From Candidatus Magasanikiibacteriota bacterium (GTDB taxonomy: Bacteria > Patescibacteriota > Patescibacteriia > Magasanikbacterales > UBA922), in assembly GCA_012800155.1 (NCBI GenBank), contig JAAZJX010000012.1, positions 1 through 32,089 of the forward strand: DNA of 32,089 nucleotides. The letters run 5' to 3'. The notes beneath the pieces are model-generated. The model saw nothing but the letters and a program-made list of their open reading frames with translations, made no database searches and was not told the origin of the DNA. Shown one piece after another: positions 9,803 to 11,225 of the stretch (its first letter is position 1; each line of letters starts with the position of its first letter). The translations under genes were made by a program, and so were the position numbers.

Positions 9803-9961
9803 ATGAGCCAAACTGGATTGATTATTTTATCCTTTACAATCCTAATATTATTAATAACTTACAAAATAAAGCCATTGATATTAAAAATGGTCATTCAATT
9901 CGGAGTCCTTGCCTTAATATTAGGATTAACACTCTTTTTCTACTTTCAGTCATTAAAGTAG
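9803..9961 (+). CDS. 52-residue two-helix membrane protein, unknown function
   Basis: I do not recognise this protein. It starts at an ATG preceded by AGGAG (9792-9796, spacing 6 nt), the only strong Shine-Dalgarno found in the window, and has a consensus promoter about 80 nt upstream. The peptide begins MSQTGLIIL and is almost wholly hydrophobic: segments at about residues 5-20 and 29-49 are separated by a short basic turn (KIKP), and it ends FQSLK. It is the only plus-strand gene between 1.2 kb and the window end. Codons ending in C (ATC, TCC, GTC, CTC, TTC, TAC) are more frequent than in neighbouring genes, which could mean foreign origin. Size and topology would fit a toxin of a type I-like system, a small membrane regulator or a holin-like peptide; nothing distinguishes these. 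Confidence 0.72.
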   Translation: MSQTGLIILSFTILILLITYKIKPLILKMVIQFGVLALILGLTLFFYFQSLK

Positions 9962-10085: not shown

Positions 10086-10124
10086 TTTTATTTTATCAAT
10101 TATTCCTTTTATTAATTATTAAAA

Positions 10125-10222: not shown

Positions 10223-10265
10223 ACTCAAACCTACAATAACCGCGTTAACCTGTCTACCAATCGCC
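10223..10265 (-). pseudogene. Decayed tRNA-Asn-like remnant (proximal)
   Basis: CTCAAACCTACAA, then GTTAAC, then TCTACCAAT match the T-arm, anticodon loop and D-arm of the neighbouring tRNA-Asn. About 7 nt of the anticodon arm are deleted and the 5' acceptor strand is missing. It directly abuts the 3' end of the intact gene (3 nt between them), as expected for a partial tandem duplicate. Confidence 0.65.
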
Positions 10266-10268
10266 TTG

Positions 10269-10341
10269 CTCTCCCGGTAGGGCTCGAACCTACAACATCT
10301 GCATTAACAGTGCAGTGTTCTACCAATTGAACTACAGGAGA
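10269..10341 (-). tRNA. tRNA-Asn (anticodon GUU)
   Basis: Acceptor strands TCTCCTG and CGGGAGA pair (one G.T), with discriminator G73, an identity element of tRNA-Asn. The anticodon stem CTGCA/TGCAG encloses loop CTGTTAA, giving GTT. The T-stem is GTAGG/CCTAC with loop TTCGAGC, and the D-loop contains TTGGTAGA. CCA is not encoded. The gene lies 51 nt downstream of the leader terminator at 10393-10416, so it would be expressed only on read-through unless another promoter lies in that gap; I see none. Confidence 0.96.
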
Positions 10342-10392
10342 GCATGACGGACAGACAGCGCATTATTACACCAACTCAACTACTCAAAATAA

Positions 10393-10416
10393 AATACCCA
10401 CCGATCGGTGGGTATT
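10393..10416 (-). terminator. Attenuator terminator upstream of tRNA-Asn
   Basis: A perfect 24-nt palindrome forms a 10-bp stem (AATACCCACC with GGTGGGTATT) around loop GATC, followed on the minus strand by TTTTATTTTG. It comes 17 nt after the stop codon of the Asn-rich leader ORF. Its 5' arm and loop (10415-10401) can instead pair with leader bases 10450-10436. Confidence 0.9.
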
Positions 10417-10433
10417 ATCTAAAAAAATAAAAA

Positions 10434-10511
10434 CTATACCACACCATCGGGAGATAACAAATTATTATTGTTATTTAATTGTCGCAAAGACAATTTTGAA
10501 TATAGTTTCAT
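10434..10511 (-). CDS. Leader peptide with five consecutive Asn codons
   Basis: The 25-codon ORF starts MKLYSKLSL, carries asparagine at codons 13-17 (AAT AAC AAT AAT AAT) and ends SPDGVV before TAG. The ATG is only 8 nt after the -10 box, so the mRNA is leaderless or nearly so, and there is no Shine-Dalgarno. The Asn codons lie in the 5' arm and loop of a hairpin (ATAACAA at 10474-10468, TTGTTAT at 10460-10454); another hairpin, AATTGTC/GACAATT, precedes it (10495-10477). AAACTATA (10508-10501) can pair with TATAGTTT (10438-10431), closing a three-way structure that would mask the antiterminator strand when untranslated. I infer a regulatory peptide sensing charged tRNA-Asn. Confidence 0.78.
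   Translation of the reverse strand: MKLYSKLSLRQLNNNNNLLSPDGVV
10436..10450 (-). promoter_or_regulatory. Antiterminator strand (region 2) of the Asn attenuator
   Basis: Minus-strand CCGATGGTGTGGTAT (10450-10436) pairs with ATACCCACCGATCGG (10415-10401) in 14 Watson-Crick pairs. The bulges are one T (10441) and one G (10406). This excludes the terminator. The strand covers codons 21-25 and the first base of the stop codon of the leader ORF, so a ribosome at the stop would mask it, while one held at the Asn codons (10475-10461) would leave it free. Confidence 0.8.
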
Positions 10512-10519
10512 ATATTTTT

Positions 10520-10547
10520 ATTTTAGCACTTAAATTTTAATTGTCAA
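10520..10547 (-). promoter_or_regulatory. sigma70-type promoter of the Asn leader / tRNA-Asn unit
   Basis: Minus-strand TTGACA (10547-10542) and TAAAAT (10525-10520) are 16 nt apart, with an extended -10 TGC directly before the -10 box. The expected start of transcription falls at or within 2 nt of the leader ATG at 10511. Confidence 0.8.
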
Positions 10548-10601: not shown

Positions 10602-11225
10602 TCAAGAAAAAACAAAAGAACCCCAATCATTAATTTTTTTTCCAATTTGAAACACTAAAAATTTATAAATTAATCTATGCAATTTTTCATACTCTCCTTT
10701 TTCAAATTTCAAATTAAAAATCAATTGCCAATCTCCTTCTAATAAAATAGTCAAATCTTTTTTCAACTCCCTACTCGTTTTTTCTACAGAAACAATATCT
10801 AAACCAAGATAAAATAATAATTTCACCACAAAACCATCCACCATAACTAATTTTATCTCTGAACAATTATTCACAAATTTCAACCAACTTTTTAATAATA
10901 TAAAAATTCTTTTATCTTTTTCTTCTATTTCCAATATTTTATTTAATAAACTTACTATAAACCCAGCTATCAAACTTTTTTGTAAATCTTGTCTAATATT
11001 TATAAAATAATCTATACTCTGCACTGCACCTAAATGATTCAATTCTTTACCTTTAATAATTTCTAATTCAACATAGGAAAACGGCTCTAAATGAGCCGAA
11101 TTTTTACTAATTATTTTTTTTACTCCCTTAGCCAAAACTTCCATTTTTCCTTTTTCTAAAGTTAAAAAAGAAATAATTTGATCTGATTCACGAAAATCAC
11201 GGCGTGCTAAAATTATCGCTTGCAT
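10602..11225 (-). CDS. recO: DNA repair protein RecO
   Basis: RecO anneals single-stranded DNA and helps RecR load RecA at gaps. The 207 residues start with the family signature AIILARRDFRESDQIISFLT inside an N-terminal OB-fold (1-75), followed by a helical C-terminal domain. It is shorter than the 242-residue E. coli protein, and the Cys4 zinc-binding motif of many RecO proteins is absent (I see only isolated cysteines). It starts 4 nt after the ruvX stop and ends the adk-map-ruvX-recO run. Confidence 0.9.
   Translation of the reverse strand: MQAIILARRDFRESDQIISFLTLEKGKMEVLAKGVKKIISKNSAHLEPFSYVELEIIKGKELNHLGAVQSIDYFINIRQDLQKSLIAGFIVSLLNKILEIEEKDKRIFILLKSWLKFVNNCSEIKLVMVDGFVVKLLFYLGLDIVSVEKTSRELKKDLTILLEGDWQLIFNLKFEKGEYEKLHRLIYKFLVFQIGKKINDWGSFVFS

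Follow-up and report, generated by a model that had tools for sequence, protein, structure and literature searches.

Can the transcription of a tRNA gene be governed by a ribosome translating the codons that this same tRNA reads? The question is raised by a locus in a 32,089-nt stretch of DNA (the window; GCA_012800155.1, contig JAAZJX010000012.1) from a Candidatus Magasanikiibacteriota bacterium. Leader-peptide attenuators are known for the trp, his, phe, leu, thr and ilv operons, and attenuators of this design are well known for enzyme genes. tRNA genes are usually viewed as being set by growth rate, promoters, copy number and decay, and the Patescibacteria have reduced genomes that are often considered sparsely regulated. 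The original prediction for this locus was a leader ORF rich in Asn codons, followed by a terminator and then by the gene for tRNA-Asn(GUU), with the tRNA itself as the attenuated gene. The elements of the locus are as follows.

10602–11225, minus strand: recO (Pfam), the gene preceding the leader promoter
10547–10520, minus strand: promoter TTGACA-16-TAAAAT with a TG before the -10 hexamer (11/12 in a consensus scan; same layout in relatives)
10511–10434, minus strand: leaderless leader-peptide ORF, MKLYSKLSLRQLNNNNNLLSPDGVV, 25 codons, ending in a TAG stop (ORF reading and comparison with relatives)
10475–10461, minus strand: five consecutive regulatory Asn codons, AAT AAC AAT AAT AAT, within the leader ORF
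10431–10445, minus strand: 5' strand of the antiterminator, GGUG-U-GGUAU, overlapping the UAG stop codon (pairing calculation; first paired base 15 nt past the last Asn codon)
10416–10393, minus strand: intrinsic terminator AATACCCACCGATCGGTGGGTATT followed by TTATTTT (perfect palindrome with U-run), the 5' arm of which doubles as the 3' strand of the antiterminator
10341–10268, minus strand: tRNA-Asn(GUU) of the D-stem type GTTC:GAAC, i.e. U11-A24 (ARAGORN; Rfam RF00005)

The predicted arrangement is real in that the promoter, ORF, codon run, terminator and a competing antiterminator could all be located. The leader ATG at 10511 lies only 8 nt past the -10 hexamer, so the leader mRNA is leaderless or nearly so. 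The sequence around the leader stop codon, GGUGUGGUAU, is able to pair with AUACCCACC, which is the 5' arm of the terminator. Terminator-like sites in this part of the window number five, against 0.7 expected from shuffles of the region, and the RNA from 10520 to 10385 folds more strongly than its shuffles (z = -4.3). Just two leaderless short ORFs with both a promoter and a terminator were found in the 912-kb genome, and since the Asn leader is the sole one with a codon run, its arrangement goes beyond chance. The other such ORF, MRDKSLKFVSHF (L373, position 1949 on the plus strand of contig C85), carries no codon run; it is possibly an attenuator of another kind, or a small RNA. No leaders rich in cognate codons precede the other tRNA genes of this genome, in which leader control is specific to Asn.

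Outside its own genome, searches for the leader by DNA similarity gave nothing but chance matches, as it diverges too fast for such a search, and relatives were therefore gathered via the tRNA. A leader was scored where an ORF of 5–45 codons, four or more of them Asn within a span of eight, lay within 220 nt upstream of the tRNA. By this measure an in-frame Asn-codon leader is present at 45 of 51 tRNA-Asn loci, chosen by tRNA similarity only, from the same order (sampled as the family/order whose named members are Candidatus Magasanikbacteria). None was found at 64 tRNA-Asn loci outside the class, a sample likewise chosen by tRNA alone (maximum two Asn in eight), nor upstream of 63 non-Asn tRNAs (maximum three in eight). 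Clusters of the same density made from six other two-codon sets (Lys, Ile, Phe, Tyr, Asp and part of Thr) occur at only 0–5 of the 51 loci. The succession of leader, terminator and tRNA-Asn also recurs in other orders of the class. A three-codon pattern applied within the class matched 16/34 genomes of the order and 26/346 of other orders; the reversed pattern matched none. In a broad scan of about 85,000 species genomes, a four-codon Asn run placed 72–102 nt before the tRNA-Asn core, a narrow pattern that under-counts, returned 37 records. Uncultured or metagenome-derived bacteria account for 36 of these, and almost all of them are named as Patescibacteria (Magasanik-, Kuenen-, Komeili- and Kerfeldbacteria together with unnamed relatives). 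A Klebsiella record (L146) has no leader ORF and was set aside as a chance match. A phylum-wide scan for the leader plus a narrow tRNA core gave nothing outside the class, and carries no weight because a control with the tRNA core alone reached only 13 of 379 genomes; the 64 loci picked by tRNA alone replace it as the proper out-of-class control.

The collected tRNA-Asn(GUU) genes (L031–L125, L136–L285 and L399–L428) fall into two types according to the D-stem, and the leader goes with one of them. Genes with U11-A24 (GTT:AAC) carry it in 72 of 83 cases, a group partly chosen by leader-containing patterns, except for its 51 order loci (45 with leader); those with C11-G24 (GC:GC) carry it in 0 of 96. 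The 72 distinct leaders share a compact design. The -10 hexamer ends 5–10 nt before the ATG in 60 of them (mode 8–9), a distance so short that the mRNA begins at or beside the AUG. The peptides are 13–29 residues long with 4–9 Asn codons each, and every leader is followed by a terminator, which begins 17–37 nt past the stop codon in 70/72.

To examine the antiterminator, the sequence downstream of the Asn run and ahead of the terminator was paired in each genome with the terminator 5' arm of that genome and, for comparison, with those of every other genome. The native pairings average -15.7 kcal/mol and the swapped ones -9.8 (z = -16.8), and none of 5000 permutations fell below -11.2 kcal/mol. 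As the own arm pairs far better than swapped arms, leader and terminator evidently co-evolve; the 72 include leaders of close relatives, and any effect of this should be to improve the swapped pairings. The antiterminator segment starts a median of 10 nt past the last Asn codon (at least 9 nt in 49/72, at least 6 nt in 67/72), and in all 72 leaders the strand lies within the footprint of a ribosome positioned at the stop codon. Folding was carried out on the RNA as it stands before the terminator 3' arm is made. When a ribosome occupies the last Asn codon, the terminator 5' arm is captured by upstream RNA in 65/72 leaders; when it occupies the stop codon, the arm is captured in 1/72, a value that follows in part from the footprint setting. 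With no ribosome at all the arm is captured in 63/72, i.e. the untranslated leader is predicted to be antiterminated, and a trp-type 1:2 hairpin that would terminate it, a feature that not all attenuators share, is mostly not predicted. The leader of the window folds likewise in the three ribosome states.

These loci thus combine a putatively translated ORF with an Asn run, an intrinsic terminator, a co-varying and mutually exclusive antiterminator, its placement over the stop codon, and an Asn-related target gene. The leader is very probably a ribosome-mediated transcription attenuator that senses Asn-tRNA and has a tRNA gene as its first target. RNA polymerase would start at or beside the AUG, and a ribosome would begin the leaderless 25-codon peptide. 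When charged Asn-tRNA(Asn) is ample, the ribosome would pass the five Asn codons, reach the UAG and mask GGUGUGGUAU; with this segment masked, the terminator hairpin would form and transcription would stop before the tRNA. When charged Asn-tRNA is scarce, the ribosome would stall within the Asn run and leave GGUGUGGUAU free to pair with AUACCCACC, so that no terminator would form and tRNA-Asn would be transcribed. That ribosomes stall, which way the response goes and what it means for the cell are inferred, and the same applies to the feedback loop, in which a shortage of Asn-tRNA would raise the supply of tRNA-Asn. Because the product reads the very codons that are sensed, the loop would tend to keep Asn-decoding capacity constant by negative feedback. 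More tRNA does not by itself cure a shortage of asparagine, and the benefit under starvation is therefore less obvious than for a biosynthetic operon.

The attenuation originally proposed stands as regards an Asn-codon leader before tRNA-Asn, and has to be amended as regards its resting state, since the untranslated leader is predicted to be mostly antiterminated, unlike that of the trp attenuator. According to the folding model the gene would be on by default, an untranslated leader mostly being read through, which would be fitting for an essential RNA. The modelled switch departs in this from the trp scheme and could be a sensor of general translation.

The second question is whether the tRNA is the true target of the attenuator. 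Downstream of the tRNA the window contains the following.

10086–10054, minus strand: hairpin with U/A-rich flanks on both strands, a terminator downstream of the tRNA that is readable on both strands (terminator scan)
9803–9961, plus strand: ORF of a 52-aa hydrophobic protein, with a GGAGA motif before its ATG, between tRNA-Asn and asnS
9609–8311, minus strand: asnS, asparaginyl-tRNA synthetase (Pfam PF00152/PF01336)

The asnS gene was predicted to lie about 0.66 kb further on, behind a two-strand hairpin, and it does: it starts 658 nt past the tRNA and beyond the hairpin at 10086–10054, and looks separate from the leader-tRNA unit. At seven other leader loci, which belong to several families and orders, the tRNA is followed directly by asnS, co-directional and at +42 to +136, and the AsnRS encoded there are 57–75% identical to that of the window. 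Glutamine synthetase is next at six (L080, L090, L091, L102, L104 and L114), about 20–50 nt past tRNA-Asn, which suggests that amide nitrogen supply is part of the regulon in some lineages. Together, asnS or glutamine synthetase follows in 13 loci, and aspS is the next gene at one. The idea of the tRNA as sole attenuated gene appears to hold in the window, but not in the relatives that add asnS or glutamine synthetase.

These neighbours could mean that the attenuator arose for asnS, or for an operon of Asn supply, and that tRNA-Asn is a passenger, which would have stayed on alone after break-up of the operon in cases such as the window. This history is the most serious alternative, and we regard it as possible but rather unlikely. 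The leader accompanies tRNA-Asn at all collected leader loci, while asnS is present in a minority (the loci having been gathered via the tRNA, a leader before asnS alone would escape). At many other loci a terminator lies within about 10 nt past the tRNA, making it monocistronic, and the restriction of the leader to one tRNA-Asn isodecoder type also argues against an origin in asnS. The constant element of the attenuated unit is tRNA-Asn; asnS and glutamine synthetase are its occasional partners, with an evident tie to Asn-tRNA supply.

A further possibility is that the leader and its terminator form an independent short transcript, and that tRNA-Asn is expressed constitutively from a promoter of its own. 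The original prediction had depended on there being no promoter between the terminator (10393) and the tRNA (10341), and a consensus scan recognised none there. The window genome differs from most relatives in that the gap, at 52 nt, offers space enough for a weak promoter, and the one candidate within it is an extended -10-like motif, TGTAATAAT, at 10370–10362, with no properly spaced -35. Five loci of the order have no leader at all. At L106 and L110, where it has been lost, a promoter-like sequence stands immediately before tRNA-Asn, as expected if these genes reverted to constitutive expression. In 54 of the 72 leaders, however, the terminator stem ends no more than 22 nt before the tRNA, and part of this gap is the U-run; no promoter fits there, so that in most relatives the tRNA must come from read-through. 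A separate promoter would also leave the antiterminator unexplained, and we consider such an arrangement improbable. Transcription of tRNA-Asn through the attenuator, as predicted, thus has strong comparative support: the leader recurs across the order, its antiterminators co-evolve with the terminators, and there is mostly no room for another promoter.

The AAY run might instead be an RNA element, a binding site or an unstructured spacer, from which no peptide is made. The genome is AT-rich and contains chance short Asn-rich ORFs elsewhere. Yet when clusters were sought in all frames at the order loci, with no ATG required, every one of the 45 found shared its frame with an ATG and a stop codon. 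Both codons are used (338 AAT and 104 AAC across the 72 leaders), the runs are interrupted by varied whole codons, and the ATG is placed at the predicted transcription start. An untranslated element is accordingly very improbable. A T-box-like element that binds uncharged tRNA-Asn directly would follow the same logic for the same kind of target amino acid system, but can hardly be entertained, as an Rfam scan of the whole window at the gathering threshold gave rRNA and tRNAs only, and the ORF has a run of 4–9 codons in place of a single specifier codon.

With a peptide attenuator as the preferred reading, the genomic setting of the tRNA can be considered. The window gene is the sole tRNA-Asn detected among 43 tRNAs in the whole assembly (G000; 912 kb, 100 contigs), where only the leader type was found. 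tRNA-His is absent from the assembly, suggesting small gaps, so the tRNA set is incomplete and a second tRNA-Asn gene may conceivably have escaped. The search for a second gene had a different outcome among the relatives, which often hold a further tRNA-Asn gene without a leader. The C11-G24 type is present in 36 of 86 genomes of the order, several of which also have the leader type, and both types seem to occur in many genomes of the class (17, judged from the variable region). Taken together, we think it likely that here a tRNA regulates, via a peptide attenuator, the gene from which it is itself transcribed, and that this closed loop is conserved across much of one class of Patescibacteria and linked to one of the two isodecoder types. 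Where a lineage has both types, one gene would be constitutive and the other inducible; in the lineage of the window the inducible one is apparently the sole copy.

No asparagine synthetase scored above the curated cut-off in the window genome or in most relatives, and no GatB did so in the assembly of the former. These absences suggest that asparagine may need to be imported, which would be a possible reason for Asn-specific control. Use of tRNA-Asn as a substrate of GatCAB (indirect Asn-tRNA synthesis) was considered and rejected as a general explanation, as GatB turned up in 18 of the 20 genomes examined for it and was not found in the window genome.

After tRNA-Asn, the window has a decayed tRNA-like stretch at 10265–10211 (ggtagttcag...ggtagaa). 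Similar stretches are found between terminator and tRNA at L037, L085, L087, L099, L114, L117 and L121, and several contain an inserted palindromic repeat, e.g. cagcccaaggctga. Their appearance is that of repeats that either derive from tRNA or target it.

The locus resembles the attenuators of the trp, his, phe, leu, thr and ilv operons in its short ORF with a run of regulatory codons, its intrinsic terminator, and an antiterminator that overlaps the region of the stop codon. It differs from them in having a tRNA gene as target, Asn as the regulatory amino acid and a leaderless ORF, and in the predicted behaviour of the untranslated RNA, which lacks the 1:2 protector hairpin in most cases and is antiterminated. 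Attenuated aminoacyl-tRNA synthetase genes are exemplified by pheST with pheM in E. coli. Candidate attenuators precede trpS2 and leuS of Streptomyces (PMC1262725). There too the charging of one tRNA is sensed and the charging machinery is controlled, and asnS shares the operon in seven of the present relatives; the target in those systems, however, is the synthetase and not the tRNA. T-boxes place synthetase and amino acid genes under antitermination (PMC2494555) and likewise serve a steady level of charged tRNA, but they bind uncharged tRNA directly, by means of a specifier codon, and lack a translated leader. A parallel in form is offered by the leaderless cysteine-rich upstream ORFs of mycobacteria, short ORFs with a run of a single codon which were also proposed as attenuators (PMC4633059). 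Those precede protein genes of cysteine metabolism, and no conserved intrinsic terminators were reported for them (PMC1262725). In the open-access literature, no earlier report was found of a peptide attenuator before a tRNA gene, of Asn as the regulatory amino acid, or of either in Patescibacteria.

For peptide attenuation, both the kind of target (a tRNA gene) and the amino acid (Asn) would be new. The finding raises the question of why tRNA-Asn alone is controlled in this way, and why the control is confined to the isodecoder that has the U11-A24 D-stem. For the organisms themselves, the level of one tRNA is seemingly governed by the speed of ribosomes on that tRNA's own codons, and this would give the Patescibacteria a concrete regulatory circuit.
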